From a virus, in the IMG/VR virus record IMGVR_UViG_3300030451_000130, positions 2,965 to 26,285 of that record: a stretch of 23,321 nt of DNA. One strand, written 5' to 3'. How positions within the stretch are numbered: the stretch's first letter is position 1; every line of letters starts with the position of its first letter. The notes under the pieces were generated by a model. That model was given only the letters and a program-made list of their open reading frames with translations. It had not been told where the DNA came from and made no database searches. The translations under genes and the position numbers were made by a program. Shown one piece after another: positions 2,458 to 17,218 of the stretch.

Positions 2458-5400
2458 TTATGTGTTAGTTATGTTTATTAATGATGCGTCTGGTAGACGT
2501 GTTTTCCAATGAGTAATTCTGGCAACAGGGTTATTAATATAACTACCATAAGACCCAGCATTAAATTCTCTATGTCCAATATGCATTAATGTTGGTTTTT
2601 GAGTATCAGTTGGTAAGTTATGTATAGGTGCAGTTGTATCCTGACCAGTTAAAGTACCATTTAATATCGCTCGCATATCATTTAATTGATGAGCAAATGC
2701 AGCTTTAGCAATATCTCCATCACTTAAAGAAGTATTCATAACTCTTGCGTGACTAGCTCCTTGTACCTGATGTTTAAAATATAGTTGAGTACCAGCGAAT
2801 TGTATGTTTTGACTATAACCACTTGAATGAGAAAACTGCATAAATCTTCCATGAGGTTTAAAACTTGTATCAGACTGTAGTTTAACATGACCAAACATAG
2901 TATTAGCAGTAGGACTCCAGAAAGCTTCCTTATTACCACCATCACGATCAAACACTGTTGTAGCTGTTGATGTGTAGGTGTCGGCTGGTCTGGTTACTTG
3001 TCCACCATCTGTTTCTATATAAGAAGAAGGATATGGAGTATTTTCATTTTGTAACCCAAATAAAGCCCATGTTGCTTTTCCGTTACCTGTATAACTGCCA
3101 TTATATTCAGAACTTATTATTCCTTCACCCTCACCAAAACTTATAGTTACATTTGGGTTTCGGTATGTAGCTGTTATGAATACGTTTTTTAGTCCTACTC
3201 TGTACCAACCGTTTGCATATTCCTCTATAAATGGTATGGCTTCCCAAGCTACACCTTGGCTACTTGTACCAGAAGTTCCAGCATGGGCATTAGTTTCTTT
3301 AGTAGAAACATTATAAGCCATTTTAATTGTATTAGAACCTATACCGTTAATTCTAATATTAAATGTTTTTCGATTTGATAAAGGTTTAATAAACCATGAA
3401 TAACTAGACCTTACACCTTCTTTTATAACATCGGGGTTAGCGGCTGAGTTAGAGTTTAAGTTATGAGTACCAGTGGATGTATCCTCTGTAAAAACAACTA
3501 CTTTTCCAGTTTCACCTGTAGGAGCAGCTATTGTATTATCAATATCAGAACTTCCTCCATTTGCTGCCCATTTATTACCACGCCAAAAACCATTTGAAAA
3601 AGTAATATAGTTAATTGCTGAAGGTTCAAGATATAAACCAGTAGGAACTAATGTCTTAGGATCATGGCTGTAGCGTGGTCCGCCAGACTTAGAGGCTCCT
3701 GTATTAACAGCAATATCAGTTACTTCACTACCTTCTTCTACTTGCCATCCAGTCCAGTAAGCAGTACCTAACGTATCAGTAGTATTTCCAGCGTGTCCAG
3801 TAATAGATGAAGTACCAGAATAATTTACAGTTACAAATATTCTATACCAACCATCACTAAGTTTGGTAAAACCCGGATTAGACATAGTTGAATGTAGCCC
3901 AGAAAATGTTTCTGTAGCAAAATCAAAATAAAATCCTCCATTTGAAAAAGTATTCATTCTAACCGCAGAAGAAGTTCCTTGTTTAACAAAAACTGAAATT
4001 GTATGTAACCCATTTAGAGTATAAGAAGCTCCAGCATGACCTCTATGATGATAACCACTACTTGTATGTGTACTTTTTATAACCCTAGTTATCCAAGGAG
4101 CTTCGGTTGGAGGATTAACTTCTGTTGTATTAGCTTCACCAGAATTTGTTGAAGAATAACCACCATGTTGAGAAGCATCTTGACTATACGATGAGTAGTT
4201 TATTTTAGTCGTCTTAATCAAACCATTACTATCAACATACGTTGCGTTACCTAGTCGGCTTACAAATTTCTCTATTGATGGGATGTAGTTTGTTAAATAA
4301 CCTTCTTCTGTTTGACCACCATATACTTCAATTCCATCTGTACCATTTCCTATTACAACAGTAGTTGTTGCAGAATTTGAAGGATGTGCATGAACAAAGT
4401 TTGTAGTATCAGGACTAGTTACTGAACACCTATACCAACCATTACCAACATCTTCCATTGCGGCAGCGTCTGGAACACTTAATTGAACATTTCCGTCACG
4501 ATAACCTGTTGACATGGTTCCGTTAATTAAATCAAAACATTTACCAACATTTCTATTTCTTATATGAAGAAAACGCAAACCTGAAGCTTTAGCATAGATA
4601 CTAAATGTTTTTCTACTTGAAACATTAGCCGTAAATCCAGACCAATATATTCTTTTTATTCCACTATTGTCTGTATTAGGAATTAATTTAGTCGAGTCAT
4701 ATTTACCACTTGGAGATAAGCCGTAATAAGATATTGGTATTAGACGTTCAATACCGTTTGTACCATTAACAGTCTCTTGTCTAGGTAGATTACTATGAGT
4801 AAATAAGTTTGTCCTATAAGTACCAAATTTATCATCACTTATTGATACGACATCGGCTGATCTGGTTACTGATGAACCTGATGTTGGTATAACAGAAGTT
4901 TCAAAAGTACCAGCTTCAAACTGAACACCCCATATTAAAAATCCTTTACCAGTACCCGCATAACTCGAACCTGTACTAATGTTTGGCATGAAATAAACAG
5001 TAGCAGCTCCACCGGGTTCAACAGTGTAAGTTATTTTTATACGAAACCAACCATTTCCTACGGGAGTTATAGTTGTAGTACCTACTACCCTTGCACCATT
5101 ACCGGCATTATGTATTTTTCCTTCTTGAAGATCAAACACAAATGCTCCACAATTATGCTGTGTTACACGAACATATCTAATACTATTTGTAGCTGGTTCT
5201 TTTAAATATGCAGTAAGAGTATGGTTTGTTCCGGCGGTACGAGTTTGTCCAAATTGATTATAATGAATCTGATTAGCAGTATTATCACTTACTAATGAAG
5301 CTGTATTTGTACCGTCTGGAGCTGTCGCAGCATTTGTACTAATAACACATCCATTTTGACTCCAACCTGCATTAGCACTTTGAGGTTGAACACTACTATG

Positions 5401-8121
5401 AGTTATTAAGTTTGTCCTAGATTCTTCAATCAACAAACCTCTTGGTTCAAATGTTTCTGTAAGATTAGGTGTTGAGGTATATACGTCTGCTGCTCTGGTT
5501 ACATAAGAACTAGAATTAGAAATAATAGGTGACTTTAAATAATCTTCAGTTTTATTAACTCCCCAAATATAAATTCCACTATCAAAATCATCTAAGTCAT
5601 TAGATCCACCATGCCAATGAATATTATTAGTAGGATGTTTATTTATTGTAAGGCCATGATATCCATTAAAATTAGTAGAAGTAGATTTCATACTAATTCT
5701 AAACCAACCATTAGGGTATTTTTGTATTAATGGTATATTATCACTAGTACTATGATTATGAGCTATCGTGCCATCAATAATATCAAAAACTACACCTCTG
5801 GTAGAAGTACCAGCACCGTGCATAAATAGCTGTACATATCTGTAACCAGCAGACTTAACAAATGCAGATAGAACAAAAGTTTTATTACCACCTGTTCTCT
5901 GCTGTTCCGTCATCATTGTGTCTTGGGTTGGTTTTAATAATGTAGCTGTTTGGGTTCCATCTGGAGCTATAGCAGCATTAGCTGTCCATATAGCGTTTTG
6001 ATTGTTAGACCAACCAGCTCGATTACCAGAATCATTGACTAATTGAGTAAATGTTGAATGATTTTGTGCAGCCGGTTCTAAATACAAACCTGTTGGTATT
6101 AATGTATCTGGGTCGTGGCTGTAGCGTGGTCCACCTGTTTTAGTACCTTCAGTTGGTGCATATTCTCCAGCATCATCTTTGTTATCAGTTTGCATTGCAT
6201 GCCAAAGATGTATTCCTTTAATATTATTACCTGTTACAGTTGATCTAAAATAAAAATTTGTATCTGGCGGTCCACCAGTATTAGGTTGTATAGCTACAAT
6301 AGTACTAAAAAAAGAATTTGGTTTTAAAATACATCTATACCACCCATTACCTTCATTAATCATTTCTCCTGTACCATTTGCAGTAAAAGTTACAGTACCA
6401 TTGATTAAATCAAACTGAGCACCGGGACTTGCAGTTGCACTAGAACCTTGTAATAGTAAATTAACATGAGTCATACCATCAGCTTTTGCATAAACTGATA
6501 CAGCACCGTGTGCTCCCGTTGATTGATATATAACAGCATTATTATCAGTCAAGTTTGCCTGTACAAATTTACTAGCAGTTTGTGTCCCATCTGGGGCTGT
6601 AACCGTACCAGTAAAAACTTGTCTATTATTAGCAATAGTCCACAAAGAAAAATTATTAGAATTAAGGAAATGATTTCGATAAGCCGTCTTAATTAAACCA
6701 GTACTATCAACATATGTCGCATTACCTAGTCGGCTTGTAAATGTGTTAATACTAGGGACAAATGTAGAAGCAGATTCACTTTGTTCAGCTTGTGCTCCCC
6801 ATACATAGACACTTGCCGATGTAGCCGTACCCTCGTTACCTCTTAACCTAATATTGAGTGGTTGATCTGCTAAATCTGACGTTGGAGTACTTGTATTTTC
6901 AAATCTCTGCCATTCTCCAGTAACTGTAATTGAAGTACTACTTCCAGATATTGTACCTAATCTCATTACTTTTGTGGTACCATCAGTAGTCTTTAAATAA
7001 ACACTAGCTGTATAAGGTTTACCCTTAAAAGCAGTAGCAACTGTTGGTATTTTGAGCATTGCACGATCATTCGATGTTCCTCCGCTACCGATTGCAAAGT
7101 CAACTTTAAATGCTGAATAAGTACCATCAGGAGCTAAAGCTCTTTCGCCTGTAACAGTAGTTGTTCCGCTAGAACTTCCCGGTGCAGTAGTCCAATCTTG
7201 ATAGGTATTACTTGCATGTAATAAGTTCCCAGTTTCAACACGCTCATGGGTGAATCGTGGTGAATGATTATAACCCGGAGTATTAACAACATAATCTTTA
7301 AGCTCACCAATGTTTAATTGTGGATGAGCTATATAAATTCCTTTGTTAATATCCCAAGAGTCAGACTCATTATAAAAATCTGTACTAACAGAAGTAGCAG
7401 TACTTCTACTTAGTACCCAGTTCGCACTAGGATACTGACTTGTACCATCTATTGTTATCCAACATCTATACCAGCCACCACCTACATCAATCATTCCATA
7501 AGTAATATGATCTACTACATTTGAACTATTATTTGGGTAATATAAAACCCCTTGAATTACTCCTTCTTGTAAATCGTACCTAACATGAGCTGTTCGTACA
7601 TTAGCCGAAGCCCAACCATAATGTACTAAATATCTATAACCATTTGTTGGCATTTTGGCATAGATACTTTTTGTTATTTTTCTACCAGAATAGTCTATGT
7701 TATTGTTCCAACTAATTCTTGGGTTTACTGCACCATTAACATTACTTGGTTGAGTTCCAGACTGATTAGGTTTAATTAACCTAGCTAACTGACCTCTTGG
7801 TGTATAAACTCCGTCTGTGTTATCTATAACAACACTTGTACCACTCAAATTTAACCACGTAGCTTGAGTTTCATCTAGGCTTTCTGAAGCAGATAAATAA
7901 TTTCTATATGAGGTTTCTATTAACCCTTCATTATTTATAAAAGTACCATTACTTCCTCTCGTATGATCTACTAAATATTCTCCAGTTACTTTATCTCTTA
8001 AACTACTTGTGCCAGCAAAATCTAGGTCTAAGGACGGGCGAGCTCCAGCCTTGTCATATAGAAGATCACCAAAACCTCTAGTTTGACTGACTGCACTCGC
8101 CCTTGAAGCAGTCGTTTTCAT
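2458..8121 (-). CDS. Giant modular tail adhesin with eight repeat modules
   Basis: This 1887-residue protein is the largest product in the window and is likely a receptor-binding fibre or adhesin. Eight modules of about 190-220 residues each carry an APDGT-type strand, an FDL..GT strand and a G(N/G)GW(Y/F)R-type strand. The last lies near residues 219, 405 (degenerate, GEWQRF), 595, 805, 1025, 1229, 1425 and 1639. This is the pattern of concanavalin/LamG-like beta-sandwich domains in phage fibres. Linkers carry SRLGNATYVDS (twice), GGPRYSHDP (twice) and VTR(A/P)ADTYTST-like strands. The last 150 residues, ending HWKTRLPDASLINIT, look like a further LamG-like cap. No T7 gp17-type attachment domain is visible, so how it joins the particle is unknown; the 122-residue neighbour, whose stop overlaps this start (TAATG), could be a partner. 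Cell-surface polysaccharide is the probable target, by inference. Confidence 0.8.
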   Translation of the reverse strand: MKTTASRASAVSQTRGFGDLLYDKAGARPSLDLDFAGTSSLRDKVTGEYLVDHTRGSNGTFINNEGLIETSYRNYLSASESLDETQATWLNLSGTSVVIDNTDGVYTPRGQLARLIKPNQSGTQPSNVNGAVNPRISWNNNIDYSGRKITKSIYAKMPTNGYRYLVHYGWASANVRTAHVRYDLQEGVIQGVLYYPNNSSNVVDHITYGMIDVGGGWYRCWITIDGTSQYPSANWVLSRSTATSVSTDFYNESDSWDINKGIYIAHPQLNIGELKDYVVNTPGYNHSPRFTHERVETGNLLHASNTYQDWTTAPGSSSGTTTVTGERALAPDGTYSAFKVDFAIGSGGTSNDRAMLKIPTVATAFKGKPYTASVYLKTTDGTTKVMRLGTISGSSTSITVTGEWQRFENTSTPTSDLADQPLNIRLRGNEGTATSASVYVWGAQAEQSESASTFVPSINTFTSRLGNATYVDSTGLIKTAYRNHFLNSNNFSLWTIANNRQVFTGTVTAPDGTQTASKFVQANLTDNNAVIYQSTGAHGAVSVYAKADGMTHVNLLLQGSSATASPGAQFDLINGTVTFTANGTGEMINEGNGWYRCILKPNSFFSTIVAIQPNTGGPPDTNFYFRSTVTGNNIKGIHLWHAMQTDNKDDAGEYAPTEGTKTGGPRYSHDPDTLIPTGLYLEPAAQNHSTFTQLVNDSGNRAGWSNNQNAIWTANAAIAPDGTQTATLLKPTQDTMMTEQQRTGGNKTFVLSAFVKSAGYRYVQLFMHGAGTSTRGVVFDIIDGTIAHNHSTSDNIPLIQKYPNGWFRISMKSTSTNFNGYHGLTINKHPTNNIHWHGGSNDLDDFDSGIYIWGVNKTEDYLKSPIISNSSSYVTRAADVYTSTPNLTETFEPRGLLIEESRTNLITHSSVQPQSANAGWSQNGCVISTNAATAPDGTNTASLVSDNTANQIHYNQFGQTRTAGTNHTLTAYLKEPATNSIRYVRVTQHNCGAFVFDLQEGKIHNAGNGARVVGTTTITPVGNGWFRIKITYTVEPGGAATVYFMPNISTGSSYAGTGKGFLIWGVQFEAGTFETSVIPTSGSSVTRSADVVSISDDKFGTYRTNLFTHSNLPRQETVNGTNGIERLIPISYYGLSPSGKYDSTKLIPNTDNSGIKRIYWSGFTANVSSRKTFSIYAKASGLRFLHIRNRNVGKCFDLINGTMSTGYRDGNVQLSVPDAAAMEDVGNGWYRCSVTSPDTTNFVHAHPSNSATTTVVIGNGTDGIEVYGGQTEEGYLTNYIPSIEKFVSRLGNATYVDSNGLIKTTKINYSSYSQDASQHGGYSSTNSGEANTTEVNPPTEAPWITRVIKSTHTSSGYHHRGHAGASYTLNGLHTISVFVKQGTSSAVRMNTFSNGGFYFDFATETFSGLHSTMSNPGFTKLSDGWYRIFVTVNYSGTSSITGHAGNTTDTLGTAYWTGWQVEEGSEVTDIAVNTGASKSGGPRYSHDPKTLVPTGLYLEPSAINYITFSNGFWRGNKWAANGGSSDIDNTIAAPTGETGKVVVFTEDTSTGTHNLNSNSAANPDVIKEGVRSSYSWFIKPLSNRKTFNIRINGIGSNTIKMAYNVSTKETNAHAGTSGTSSQGVAWEAIPFIEEYANGWYRVGLKNVFITATYRNPNVTISFGEGEGIISSEYNGSYTGNGKATWALFGLQNENTPYPSSYIETDGGQVTRPADTYTSTATTVFDRDGGNKEAFWSPTANTMFGHVKLQSDTSFKPHGRFMQFSHSSGYSQNIQFAGTQLYFKHQVQGASHARVMNTSLSDGDIAKAAFAHQLNDMRAILNGTLTGQDTTAPIHNLPTDTQKPTLMHIGHREFNAGSYGSYINNPVARITHWKTRLPDASLINITNT
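2968..4260 (-). repeat. Adhesin block repeat, copy 2
   Basis: This part of the adhesin gene encodes linkers SRLGNATYVDSNG, GGPRYSHDPKTLVP and VTRPADTYTST in that order, with modules between them. The same ordered set is found in copy 1 about 2.45-2.5 kb upstream in gene order. At the DNA level, TGGCTGTAGCGTGGTCC (plus-strand letters) occurs at 3665-3681 and again at 6116-6132. Boundaries are approximate. Confidence 0.6.
5471..6735 (-). repeat. Adhesin block repeat, copy 1
   Basis: This copy encodes linkers SRLGNATYVDSTG, GGPRYSHDPDTLIP and VTRAADVYTST, in the same order as copy 2. The spacing between equivalent points is consistent (6116 versus 3665, and about 6724 versus 4249). Linkers stay closer in sequence than the modules between them. 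Boundaries are approximate. Confidence 0.6.
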
Positions 8122-8489
8122 TAAATAAGCTCCGTGAGTTCTAAAGTTCCATTTACTGTGCCATCTCTGATGATAGCTATGTTAGGACCGTTTATTAATT
8201 GTCCATAAGTAGAACTAGTAGGATCCTTATCTCTTTCAAATGATGCAGGAACAGCAAAATCTAATCTTTCACCATTAGCGATGAAATTACTTGTGTTTCC
8301 GTTAGCGGTTTGGGTTCCTTTTCCAATGCTAAATCTAATATCAGCTCCAACTGCTCTTATTGAGATTCGTTGAACTGATGGTGTCAGTGCAGTATTACTT
8401 GATGCAGAACCAGCAGCCAGTTGCCTAGCTACGGAAGGTACACCTAATATTTCTACCTGAGCGTCTTTGTATTTACTTGGGTATGCCAT
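8121..8489 (-). CDS. Small conserved virion-type protein between fibres and adhesin
   Basis: The 122-residue product starts MAYPSKYKDAQVEILGVPSV and contains RISIRAVGADIRFSIGKGTQ, FIANGERLDFAVPA and ends in DGTVNGTLELTELI. It is rich in predicted beta strands and has no signal peptide or membrane span. From memory, short proteins with the same RISIRAVGADIRF and ANGERLDF strands are encoded near tail-fibre genes of marine cyanophages and are treated as structural. Its stop codon overlaps the start of the giant adhesin (TAATG) and it begins 13 bases after the second fibre gene. That position makes a connector or cap between the tail and the adhesin a reasonable hypothesis, not something the sequence shows directly. 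Confidence 0.65.
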   Translation of the reverse strand: MAYPSKYKDAQVEILGVPSVARQLAAGSASSNTALTPSVQRISIRAVGADIRFSIGKGTQTANGNTSNFIANGERLDFAVPASFERDKDPTSSTYGQLINGPNIAIIRDGTVNGTLELTELI

Positions 8490-8501: not shown

Positions 8502-9656
8502 TTAATATTTAATGCACATTAAAAGTGCTACGTTTCTTGGTCTTGATTCTGAACCTTGATTGCCAGAAGTACCAGAGGCAGAAAATGTATGATCGTGTGA
8601 ACCATCAAAGTTAACACCACCTACAGGACTATTAGAACTAGATCCTGTTATAGAGCTATTACCGTCTTGTGTTTTGGTAAATACACCACTTGCAGAACCA
8701 TTCGCATTAAATCCTTCTGATATTTTTCTGATACCACCTGTTAATGATTTATTGCTAGTTGTACCAGAAACACTTATAGAGTGGTTGTGCTGTTTATTTT
8801 CATCTGCTTGAGCTGACCTAATCTGTCTACCAGAGTCAACTCCTCTACTATCATCTAATCCTCTAATAAATTCTCCTCTAAGGTCAGGTAATGTAGCACC
8901 AACTACTGCATATAAAGCAGAAAAATCAGCAGTAACACTTTGAACTGTTCCTGACCCATTAGGTATGCTATCACCATTAGCTTTTAAATAACCCGCTGGA
9001 GCAGTAGAACCAGCATAAGTAATAACAGTACCTACGGGTGTAAAAATAACAGCACTATTTATTTTAGTTTGAGTTACAGCACCATCAGCTATTTTAGCTG
9101 TGGTAATATTAGTGTTAGCGATTTTAGCTGTTGTTACAGCAGCAGCATCTATTTTAGCTGTAGTAACAGCAGTGTCAGCTAACTTACCTGTAGTAACAGC
9201 AAGGTTATTTATATCAGCAGTTTTAACTTCTAAATCCACAATCTTAGAACTAGAAATAGAGTTGTCTGCTATGTTAGTTCCGCTGATTACAATAGCAGAC
9301 CCTGCGTTACCTAAAGCTAGACTATTAATAGACGTTCTATTTTCATCAGCTAAGAATATAGTCTGCTTATTACAATTATTCAAGTCGTTAGCACTGATTG
9401 AAGATCCAGCAACAAACGTAGCTGCTAATGTCTCAGGTTCAGTTTGTCTATAAATTCGTACATTATTTGTACCACTAGCAGTATTGCTTGTAAAAGTTAC
9501 ATCACCACCAGTTACTGGATCATAGTTATTTATAGAAAATCCAGAAGTTACTTCAGCATTACCTACACTAACTTTAATATCGGATTGTTCTAAAGACGGA
9601 AAGTCAAAGGTAAATGGACCTGTACCACCCCCGTTATGTCGTTTTTCTGATGCCAT
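8502..9656 (-). CDS. Tail fibre protein 2 (T7 gp17-type N-terminus, collar tip)
   Basis: This 384-residue protein shares its plan with the fibre encoded just before it. Residues 1-110 form a T7 gp17-like tail-attachment domain (GPFTFDFPSLEQSDIKVSV, RIYRQTEPETLAATFVAGSS, ISANDLN). Residues 131-200 are a decapeptide-repeat shaft of the AVTTAKIA(D/N) type. Residues 205-270 are a phage collar domain (VITYAGSTAPAGYLKANGDS, LPDLRGEFIRGLDD). The Gly/Ser/Asn-rich tip holds two HxH motifs (H290-N-H292 and H354-D-H356), which in T4 long-fibre tips bind iron ions, and the end SRPRNVALLMCIKY is typical of collar-type fibres. It differs from its neighbour mainly in the tip, suggesting another receptor specificity. 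The gene starts five bases before the upstream stop triplet. Confidence 0.85.
   Translation of the reverse strand: MASEKRHNGGGTGPFTFDFPSLEQSDIKVSVGNAEVTSGFSINNYDPVTGGDVTFTSNTASGTNNVRIYRQTEPETLAATFVAGSSISANDLNNCNKQTIFLADENRTSINSLALGNAGSAIVISGTNIADNSISSSKIVDLEVKTADINNLAVTTGKLADTAVTTAKIDAAAVTTAKIANTNITTAKIADGAVTQTKINSAVIFTPVGTVITYAGSTAPAGYLKANGDSIPNGSGTVQSVTADFSALYAVVGATLPDLRGEFIRGLDDSRGVDSGRQIRSAQADENKQHNHSISVSGTTSNKSLTGGIRKISEGFNANGSASGVFTKTQDGNSSITGSSSNSPVGGVNFDGSHDHTFSASGTSGNQGSESRPRNVALLMCIKY
9057..9266 (-). repeat. Decapeptide repeat shaft in fibre 2 (30-base period)
   Basis: Seven imperfect 30-base units encode a ten-residue repeat; the clearest are AVTTAKIDAA, AVTTAKIANT and NITTAKIADG. 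The period keeps Thr-Lys-Ile and Ala-Asp/Asn at fixed positions, as in a regular trimeric fibre shaft. Confidence 0.75.
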
Positions 9657-13700: not shown

Positions 13701-14465
13701 TGCTTCTTTGCTACCCTTTTTTAAAGTATAAGCAATACCATCAAATAGTAATCCTATTCCCATACCTTCTACGATGTTTTTAACTTTCATCATAACAGGA
13801 TGGTCAGTATCCTTTGTAGCTAGTGGGGTATCAGCCCAACCATATCTATCACGTAGTGCACCTAATGCGTTCTGTTCATCTGATTCTTTAGATATAAGAT
13901 CAGACACAGCTCCAACAGCTGCACCACGAGCTAGACTACTGCTAGCAAGTCCTACTAAACCAGCTGGTATAGAAACTATGCCGGTAGCTGCTGCTGCCTT
14001 AGCTGCTGCTATAGTGCCGACTGCTAGAGATCCAAAATGTACAAGACCTCTAAGTTGTTTACCCCACCATGTCTTAGTTTCGATTGGATTATCATAAGAG
14101 TCAAATGGTGTAAACTCTGGTTTGTAATATCCTTTTTCTTCTTTCTCTCTTTGCATTTCTCCTGATAACGCATCTTTTGTACGCTCAGGGAATGTGGCTA
14201 TAGATGACGCAGTGTCTTGCAAGCCGCCAGATAATATAGACTGTCCCTCTTTAATGAGTGCCTTAGCACCCCAAGTTTCAGCATTACGTGGATCGACTTG
14301 TTCAGATACTGCCTGCTCTTCAGCTGTATTAACTGCTTCTTGTTTAAGTAGCTTTTCTTGACGCCTAGCTTCAAAATCATCTATAGCGTTTCGAGCTGCT
14401 TCAACTCCAGCAGTTATGTCATCTTCATTTATTTGATAGTTGCCACCTGAGTAGGAGTCGCTCAT
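10758..14465 (-). CDS. Internal virion protein D (T7 gp16-like ejection protein)
   Basis: The 1235-residue protein has the length (T7 gp16: 1318) and position of the largest internal core protein. That protein is ejected at infection and helps form the channel that carries DNA across the envelope. Residues 1-135 are charged and helical; residues 141-190 form a long Ala/Gly-rich hydrophobic region ([20 protein letters not shown] onward) that could insert in a membrane. The rest is mostly helical with charged stretches and further hydrophobic patches. I cannot see a lytic transglycosylase domain at the N-terminus, where T7 gp16 has one; its Glu-Ser catalytic context and the GLMQ-type motif are absent. 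The ATG overlaps the gp15 stop (ATGA). The call rests on order, size and composition. Confidence 0.78.
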
Positions 14466-17218
14466 CGTTTAAATCTTCCTGTTCTTTTTGTAGGTTCTTC
14501 TTTTGTAATACCTTTTTCTAAATCACTTAAAATAACCTTAGCTATCTGTGGAGTTAGATTATGTAGTTGTGCCATGGTATAAGTTTTAAGTCGAGGAAAT
14601 AGCTCATTAACTGCTTCTTGTTCCTGTGGACTAAAGGTTGTAAGTTTAGTTGTAACTTCACCACCTTGGACTGACATACCACGTATCGAGTTCATTCGAT
14701 TTAGTTTATATCGTATAAGTTCAAAAGCAAGATAGTCTTGAAAATTTGCATCAAACTTTTGACCTTCTGGTATAATTCTTTTTAATGCACCATTGTTGGC
14801 ATCAAATAGCTCTGTTAACTCTTTACCAGTTATACCATATCTACCTAGCTTCATGTTAGGGTGCTTGAGTGATTGCTCATATACACCACCACCAAATCTG
14901 TTAATGACATCTCTTGTTTGTACACTAACAAATCTTCTATCTGTTTGTTCTATATTACCTTGTGCATCTACAGAGATCTTAAATGGATTACCAATCATTT
15001 CACCAAAATCAGCAGCTCCAGAGTGATAGTCATAACCTTGTAAATTATGGTATCCTTTTGTAGCTTCTGGTGCTTCAAATGAGTCTAGTACTTGTTTTGC
15101 ATATAACTCACCGCTGTCATCAACAGCTGTCATAACAGTTAATGTACCATGTAAACCATTCTTAGTCTGATAATTAAATAACTCAGGTTCTATAAACTTT
15201 GTTTCTCTAGGTATGTATTTACCAGTTTCTTTACTATCTTTAAATGCACCAACAGCTTCAAGTCTTTGCATCATAAACTCACGTGGTCTTTTTAAATAAC
15301 CATCTTCATCTTTGACTTTAAATTCTTTCCACCATTCAATGACTTCTGGATATAATATACCACCACTACGTATATGTGCTACAGACTTTTCTAACCATAA
15401 TGCTTCTCCCGGTTTTACGTTAGGATCATTAATTGAGTCAGGATCTTTCAAGTATTTCTCTGCCATATCTTGCTTCTGATATGCAAGCTTAGGAGATGTG
15501 TCTGTAATAAATGTATCAAACTCACCAGCATTAAGTCTAACATTTAGATCATTTACCTGATCGGCTATAAAAGCTAAAGGATCTAAACCTTTATCTAAAT
15601 GTATTTGAAAGTCACTTTTAACACCAGCTGTTCCAAGTGCAATAGAGCCACCAAGTTCCTGTTCTAACTGTTGTACAAGAAACTCATCTTCAACTGTTAG
15701 ATCTTTAACTTGTTTCTGTAAATACTGAGCTACAGCTTTTCTAAGTACACTACTTTGATTGTTTATAAGATTAGCATACTTAAGTTTATTTTGTATCTGT
15801 TCATTACCTGATAGATCAAGACCAGTAAGAGCCGACTTTAACCATTCTGGTATGCTACCTTTTAGTCTGTGTCCAGCTTTATAGGAGTTAGGATCACCTG
15901 TAAACTCAGAATATAATTTATATATTTCTGTAGGTGTAGGTGCTCTATCCTGATCCATTAGCTTATCAAAGTTTCTTTTATGAACATTACGTGCATCTTG
16001 TATTTGTTTTGCGTCGTTAGATTCTTCTTCTTTATTTTGAGATCGGATTGCATCTTGTAATTGAGTTATTCGTCTTGTTACTTTACCAAAGTGTTTACTA
16101 GCTGGACTGAGTGTAGCAACATAGTCTTGTATATTTTCATATACTTTACCATTTGGAAGTTTTGATGATATAGATGAACCATCTACGTATGGTAAATTAT
16201 TTAAAATATCTTGACCTTGATTCACACTTAATCCACCGTTTTCTACAGCTTTAGAAACTACATCAAAGTAGAGATCCATAGCTTTAGACATCGGCTGAGG
16301 CTGATTAGAAAAATACTCAAGAGCTAGCTGTTTAATTAAACCAGTTTTTATATCTGAAAAGGTTGTAAGGTCTTGACCATTCTCTGGCTTTTTAGATATG
16401 TTACGAGCTGAGTCAAGTATCTTATTTTCAAACTGTTCTTTTCTGTAAGCTCTTCTATTCTTACTTATAGATTCACCGAGCATCCAAGTGTGCTGCTCTT
16501 CTATTTTATCTAGTTTATCGAGAATTATGTTTACATAGTTTTTCTCGTATCTTCCAGAATTTATATCATAGTCACGCTTAAGTGCATCTACATGTATCTT
16601 ATTACTTATAAGACGTTTGATGAACTTTATCTGATCTATGCCGTCAATCTGGTTAGTAGACTGATCGACTTTTAAAGCATCATATACACTTCTAAAAGTA
16701 GCAGAAAGTAACGCTTTGTCATATTGATTAAAGAAAGTTTGCTGAGCAACATCTGGATTTAAGTTATCTGCTAGCTGAGCTAGAATTTCTTGAACTTCAG
16801 CTTTGGCTGTATCTTCCTCAATTTCTATTTCTTTATTTAAAATAACATTATTATAAGTATGAGCGTTCTCACCAAATTGATTTATGTTATTTCTATCAGC
16901 TCTATCAGCAGCAAGCCTTGCATCATTTTCTCTTTCTGTTGCTCGATTAGCTGCTATAGATGATGCTAAATCTCCTACTTTACCAGTTATCTCAGCGATA
17001 TAAGCGAGTCTTTTATCTCTCGCTTTATATCTGTTCTCCTCTATCTTCATCATGTCATCGTAAAACTCCTTAGTGTCCACGATGTTTCTGTCTATCTCTT
17101 TGTTAACTGCCTCTGTGAGGTCAGCTTCTGTGGCTAAGTAATTAGTATCACTTATGTCAGGTAACTTATCTCGAGGCGTACCTACGACGTTACCGAAGTT
17201 GTCAAATGATGATGTCAT
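14462..17218 (-). CDS. Internal virion protein C (T7 gp15-like ejection protein)
   Basis: This 918-residue protein occupies the T7 gp15 position and is longer than T7 gp15 (747). It is largely helical and highly charged. Residues 30-80 (EAVNKEIDRNIVDTKEFYDD and on) and 100-150 look like coiled-coil or helical-bundle segments, and the end is basic (RTGRFKR). There is no signal peptide or membrane span, as expected of a soluble core protein ejected with the DNA that assembles with gp16 in the periplasm. A more glycine- and aromatic-rich stretch near residues 720-800 contains GYHNLQGYDYHSGAADFGEM. The start lies one base after the gp14 stop and the stop shares an ATGA with gp16. Identification rests on context, length and fold class rather than a catalytic motif. 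Confidence 0.78.
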   Translation of the reverse strand: MTSSFDNFGNVVGTPRDKLPDISDTNYLATEADLTEAVNKEIDRNIVDTKEFYDDMMKIEENRYKARDKRLAYIAEITGKVGDLASSIAANRATERENDARLAADRADRNNINQFGENAHTYNNVILNKEIEIEEDTAKAEVQEILAQLADNLNPDVAQQTFFNQYDKALLSATFRSVYDALKVDQSTNQIDGIDQIKFIKRLISNKIHVDALKRDYDINSGRYEKNYVNIILDKLDKIEEQHTWMLGESISKNRRAYRKEQFENKILDSARNISKKPENGQDLTTFSDIKTGLIKQLALEYFSNQPQPMSKAMDLYFDVVSKAVENGGLSVNQGQDILNNLPYVDGSSISSKLPNGKVYENIQDYVATLSPASKHFGKVTRRITQLQDAIRSQNKEEESNDAKQIQDARNVHKRNFDKLMDQDRAPTPTEIYKLYSEFTGDPNSYKAGHRLKGSIPEWLKSALTGLDLSGNEQIQNKLKYANLINNQSSVLRKAVAQYLQKQVKDLTVEDEFLVQQLEQELGGSIALGTAGVKSDFQIHLDKGLDPLAFIADQVNDLNVRLNAGEFDTFITDTSPKLAYQKQDMAEKYLKDPDSINDPNVKPGEALWLEKSVAHIRSGGILYPEVIEWWKEFKVKDEDGYLKRPREFMMQRLEAVGAFKDSKETGKYIPRETKFIEPELFNYQTKNGLHGTLTVMTAVDDSGELYAKQVLDSFEAPEATKGYHNLQGYDYHSGAADFGEMIGNPFKISVDAQGNIEQTDRRFVSVQTRDVINRFGGGVYEQSLKHPNMKLGRYGITGKELTELFDANNGALKRIIPEGQKFDANFQDYLAFELIRYKLNRMNSIRGMSVQGGEVTTKLTTFSPQEQEAVNELFPRLKTYTMAQLHNLTPQIAKVILSDLEKGITKEEPTKRTGRFKR

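Follow-up and report, generated by a model that had tools for sequence, protein, structure and literature searches.

How does a phage fibre come to hold eight related modules between connectors that recur in a set order? Which cells are open to a phage depends on receptor recognition, and the question is raised by an adhesin gene in a window of 23,321 nucleotides (positions 2,965 to 26,285 of IMG/VR record IMGVR_UViG_3300030451_000130, a virus contig of 26,285 bases). Homologous recombination located in the connectors is probably the answer: it would swap module cassettes in a multi-slot adhesin, itself predicted from homology to bind polysaccharides. Positions below are those of the window; loci of relatives carry L numbers.

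The window phage is most likely a T7-like (autographivirus) marine cyanophage by its structural genes, because its tail tube protein B is 47.6% identical, over the full length, to that of Synechococcus phage S-TIP37. The putative host is assigned by cyanophage similarity only. A T7-like virion gene set (major head protein, tail tube A and B, internal virion proteins) is encoded upstream of the adhesin, together with two T7-tail/collar fibre proteins. The whole-window DNA gave no match to phage genomes. The collar fibre gene contains a 30-nt repeat in five copies (9061-9210), encoding ten-residue TAKI-type repeats. The 918-aa internal virion protein (14462-17218) is 28–30% identical to those of L007, L008 and L022, whose tail tube B is 87–90% identical to that of the window; it looks locally replaced. 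Two long minus-strand ORFs (598-1440 and 1092-1448) overlap in different frames. The latter has a signal-peptide-like start; the true start of the former probably lies further in. The next gene downstream (2060-2455) is likewise unusually similar between distant phages, with a pS of 0.21–0.39 against five relatives and 0.69 against L182. The genes that follow it are saturated, and it behaves as if travelling with the fibre locus.

Eight modules follow the N-terminal anchor of the adhesin and precede a LamG-like domain at the C-terminus; the order of the connectors is A-B-A-B-C-D-A-B-E (Table 1). The modules are 176–233 aa in size. They are defined by two profiles: NCBIfam NF048003 (GTA_spike_fiber), matched with 507 bits against a curated cut-off of 36 (E 2.4e-153), and PHROG 5939 (tail protein), matched at 1.9e-120. 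Each profile is found in eight stretches, which confirms the eight modules of the initial annotation. The G-W-(Y/F)-R strand ascribed there to every module is present in seven; module 2 has EWQRF only. The connectors lie where they had been placed: SRLGNATYVDS at residues 463 and 1288 (2475 nt apart), GGPRYSHDP at residues 663 and 1480 (2451 nt apart), VTRxAD at residues 874 and 1709, and a divergent VTRSAD at residue 1085. Exactly repeated protein 6-mers number 22, against a mean of 0.1 (maximum 2) after shuffling. The identical DNA stretches reported between duplicated connectors reduce to partial likeness (87% over 61 nt, 75% over 77 nt).

Table 1. Parts of the adhesin gene and its upstream neighbour (window coordinates).
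Feature	Position	Strand	Remarks
Whole adhesin gene	2458..8121	-	1887 aa, open intact frame
N-terminal anchor, aa 1–52	7966..8121	-	DNA 92–99% identical to L086, L087, L103, L104, L105, L114, L122
Module 1, slot A1, aa 53–285	7267..7965	-	Profile match; GGGWYR; search gave no close relative of the body
Module 2, slot B1, aa 286–461	6739..7266	-	Body aa identity 89% with L104 slot B1, 71% with L141 slot D
Module 3, slot A2, aa 462–660	6142..6738	-	Best body matches: slot A3 of L182, L187, L087
Module 4, slot B2, aa 661–872	5506..6141	-	Profile match; best body match L087 slot B3, next L103 slot B2
Module 5, slot C, aa 873–1083	4873..5505	-	Modelled jelly roll, pLDDT 85.8; PDB matches
Module 6, slot D, aa 1084–1286	4264..4872	-	Body identity 56% with L103 slot D
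Module 7, slot A3, aa 1287–1477	3691..4263	-	Best body match L087 slot A1
Module 8, slot B3, aa 1478–1707	3001..3690	-	Profile match
Connector E and C-terminal LamG/CBM40-like domain, aa 1708–1887	2461..3000	-	Without similarity to modules
Connector A1	7897..7965	-	
Connector B1	7195..7266	-	DNA identity 95–100% across five relatives
Connector A2	6670..6738	-	
Connector B2	6064..6135	-	
Connector C	5407..5505	-	First half E-like, second half B-like
Connector D	4807..4872	-	
Connector A3	4195..4263	-	Between-phage DNA identity 90–100%
Connector B3	3613..3684	-	DNA identity 86–99% between relatives compared; L182 lower
122-aa protein, probable anchor partner or base	8121..8489	-	Homologue upstream of related anchor-type fibre genes

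The modules belong to the family of gene transfer agent (GTA) head spike fibres. A profile built from 87 modules of the locus set matches the Rhodobacter capsulatus GTA (RcGTA) head spike fibre Rcc01080 at 8e-51 and the baseplate proteins of Pseudomonas phages E217 and Pa193 at 4e-30 and 7e-30. A confident AlphaFold model of the module 5 region (4846-5436) is a jelly roll. By Foldseek it resembles the E217 and Pa193 baseplate proteins (TM 0.77–0.78) and carbohydrate-binding jelly rolls of CBM4, CBM22 and CBM16. The CBM4/CBM22 matches (E 3e-4 to 1e-3, probability 1.0, TM 0.45–0.6) denote likeness of fold, not family membership. No Pfam family, CBM_4_9 included, is matched by the window adhesin; among the 87 modules collected, 11 match CBM_4_9 (E up to 0.1). 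The homologous C-terminal domain of L093, in a low-confidence model, is similar to folds of laminin G, CBM40 and galectin. The model of the one-module protein (pLDDT 61 overall, poor in the N-terminal half) served for its C-terminal fold only. The LamG/concanavalin folds first suggested for comparison with the modules suit the C-terminal domain alone; the modules are CBM4/22-like jelly rolls.

RcGTA head fibres attach the particles to the polysaccharide capsule of the host (PMC7296036, PMC10218006); the fibre model in the PDB entry is computed, not resolved. Because the RcGTA head fibre enables capsule attachment, binding of surface polysaccharides is the best-supported function of the modules, by homology only. 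The adhesin would be a tail fibre or a head spike fibre.

The 122-aa protein encoded upstream is likely the base or adaptor of the anchor. A homologue lies immediately upstream (<50 nt) of 49 anchor-type fibre genes, out of 77 whose upstream sequence is long enough. These are almost exactly the genes with a full anchor; nearly all of the remainder have a different N-terminus. Homologues occur in cyanophage records only. The protein is possibly similar to the GTA spike base. No sequence match to solved structures was obtained; homology to the GTA spike base Rcc01079 was not confirmed, again with no sequence match.

The anchor, the 122-aa protein and two connectors served as queries to gather the loci of relatives; body peptides of the window returned only four distant loci. 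In IMG/VR and isolate S-TIM54, fibres of one, two, three, four, five or eight modules are found. The one-module layout is A.B-M-D-LamG, in which connectors A and B, 17 residues apart, are fused. Two-module proteins read A-M-B-M-D-LamG. L161 has three modules and isolate S-TIM54 four. Five modules, in the order A-M-B-M-D-M-A-M-B-M-E, are present in L094, L134, L141 and L142, and eight in L087, L103 and the window. L104, L190, L182, L187 and L189 are fragments that agree with the eight-slot layout over the slots they contain. A scan of genome contigs with connector B returned no relative; the five- and eight-module forms were thus not found in any single-cell or cultured genome. Cyanomyovirus isolates L201 (4724-7340), L202 (3902-6476) and L203 (4561-7219) each carry two tandem one-module fibre paralogs, with anchors at about 72–80% DNA identity and different modules.

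The eight-slot form equals the five-slot form plus one A2-M-B2-M-C-M block, and the order and spacing of connectors repeat. Both features would be expected had modules 3–5 been copied recently, as one piece, into modules 7–8 and the C-terminus in the window phage, followed by divergence. A recent event of this kind is nevertheless improbable. The bodies that it should have made alike do not stand out among body pairs: between residues 460–880 and 1285–1720 the self-similarity foreseen by the initial annotation is confined to connectors, with the A2-A3 bodies ranking 17 and the B2-B3 bodies 11 among 28 pairs. The third element of the second block, taken for a module, is the unrelated C-terminal domain. 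The duplication predates these relatives, as L087 and L103 have all eight slots and L104 and L190 agree over the slots contained. Within a gene, connectors B2 and B3 encode nearly the same peptide and are synonymously saturated (pS 0.74); the block duplication is therefore old. Copying of the block from the C-terminal A3-B3-E region fits connector C, with its E-like and B-like halves. The duplication of a multi-module block is contradicted as a recent event and remains as an old one that set up the slots, fitting the connectors, which alone record it; the bodies bear no trace. Module number presumably changed by growth, not by loss.

Connectors and bodies differ in their divergence between phages. 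Same-slot connectors have a pS of 0.15 (dS 0.17); bodies have a pS of 0.57 and are saturated. Compared with L103, L104, L105 and L086, tail tube B and the internal virion proteins of the window are 28–51% identical in amino acids, with synonymous sites saturated, and the anchor DNA is 96–98% identical. Similarity of DNA is limited to islands, mostly of 41–142 nt, at most connectors. Whole modules are occasionally kept, as module 2 against L104 (90% over 601 nt). Connector B3 in the same slot of different phages has a pS of 0.12, against the 0.74 of B2 and B3 inside one gene.

Out-of-slot matches between bodies of different phages lie at 54–82%. The slot C body of L104 is 72% identical to that in slot B3 of L190, and the slot C body of L190 is 62% identical to that in slot B1 of the five-module L094. 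For 80 bodies, the nearest counterpart in another phage occupies the same slot 40 times (12.8 expected) and stands behind the same connector type 58 times (26.7 expected). The nearest connector lies in the same slot in 71 of 80. Exchange appears to take place mostly between like connectors, since the nearest bodies favour the same slot and connector type; this is the pattern predicted by homology-driven recombination. The modular exchange offered in the initial annotation as one of two explanations is supported across phages, by saturated bodies beside conserved connectors and by out-of-slot matches.

Breakpoints lie in the connectors. L094 and L191 share 98.8% identity along the 2317 nt leading to connector B3; the bodies behind it are unrelated, and likeness resumes from connector E. 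The slot B1 body of L091 is the slot B3 body of L134 (88% over 694 nt), and the switch falls inside the connector. US103 and US23, cultured isolates of one species (ACG-2014j) and a one-module case, are 96% identical through the anchor, and this identity stops with the final residue of the fused A-B connector. Their modules differ past that point, and the downstream region is 97.6% identical.

The window and most of its relatives are metagenome contigs, and connectors of 60–110 nt at 88–100% identity are natural points of mis-joining. Swapped combinations might therefore be assembly chimeras, an explanation that is very improbable. Even chimeras presuppose, for every slot, existing genomes whose bodies differ although the flanking connectors are the same. 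The breakpoint at the connector is present in isolates US103 and US23, and the replacement of modules at connectors is therefore not an effect of assembly alone. A four-module array with a fused A-B connector is present in isolate S-TIM54. The slot preference of bodies is, moreover, far above chance.

In-place divergence of bodies, by rapid point mutation under diversifying selection and with no exchange, would agree with connectors that are structurally constrained and conserved in protein beside very different bodies. It is already contradicted, and its probability is slighter still. Selection on amino acids does not produce saturated synonymous sites in bodies next to unsaturated ones in connectors, and diversifying selection, the other cause first suggested, is thereby rejected as the main one. 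Connectors can change freely at synonymous sites, as B2 and B3 have done within one gene, and bodies match other slots of other phages. A dedicated system for module variation, either a diversity-generating retroelement or a site-specific recombinase at the connectors, would suit short conserved connectors that mark the breakpoints, but is exceedingly improbable: whole bodies are replaced instead of single sites being mutated, connector DNA differs between slots, the saturation of B2-B3 leaves no fixed DNA site and means that a fixed DNA signal is not needed, and an enzyme search made for RVT_1 (reverse transcriptase) only gave no match in the 26-kb record, a fragment.

Connector-located homologous recombination could then operate as follows. 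The adhesin would be a long virion protein held to the particle by its N-terminal anchor, with eight jelly-roll modules and a LamG-like tip providing up to nine probable glycan-binding sites. Slots would be set by connectors, each slot with its own, conserved in protein and DNA despite diverged structural genes. Recombination may occur between co-infecting phages or between mixed templates within one cell. Crossovers in the connectors would replace the module body of a slot. Most donor bodies would share the slot or connector type of the body replaced; some would derive from a different slot or from five-module fibres. Duplicated connectors would permit gain or loss of whole module blocks, giving fibres of one, two, three, four, five or eight modules. 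The outcome would be a combinatorial adhesin able to track changes of host surface polysaccharides. A broader reading is doubtful: connectors would be kept both for structure and as position-specific recombination joints, in an ordered receptor array with cassettes swapped across genera, as a general diversification strategy of marine phages. The saturation of B2-B3 indicates that the DNA sequence of connectors, as such, is not fixed.

The unit of exchange is directly visible at this locus, as a fixed connector scaffold across very different backbones and a mobile pool of bodies. For uncultured marine phages, the fibre locus offers a natural archive of recombination. Each module is predicted to bind a different glycan.

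Several known systems share parts of this organization. The RcGTA head spike fibre Rcc01080, which binds the host polysaccharide capsule, has the same NF048003 domain family, but one module instead of eight, and is without connector slots A2-D. The baseplate triplex subunit of E217 (gp45) and Pa193 (gp46) shares fold and sequence with the modules, at the values given above; it has one copy of the domain and is a baseplate protein holding the tail fibre of a contractile phage. A virion structural protein of isolate S-TIM54 shares the connectors, in the order A-M-B-M-D-M-(A.B)-M-E, and the LamG-like end. It differs in belonging to a 180-kb phage of another group, in having four modules and in the fusion of its second A-B connector. 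No description of an ordered slot-wise module array was found in the openly licensed literature. In the portions consulted, PMC10579305 describes host-recognition modules shared horizontally between unrelated Alteromonas phages, and PMC10684548 domain shuffling in phage receptor-binding proteins. As in the window fibre, receptor-binding parts are exchanged there between distant phages; what these portions describe is entire fibres or combinations of domains, as opposed to an ordered array whose slots have their own connectors. Fibre mosaicism is already known, and slot-wise exchange, each slot with its own connector, is a new variant of it.
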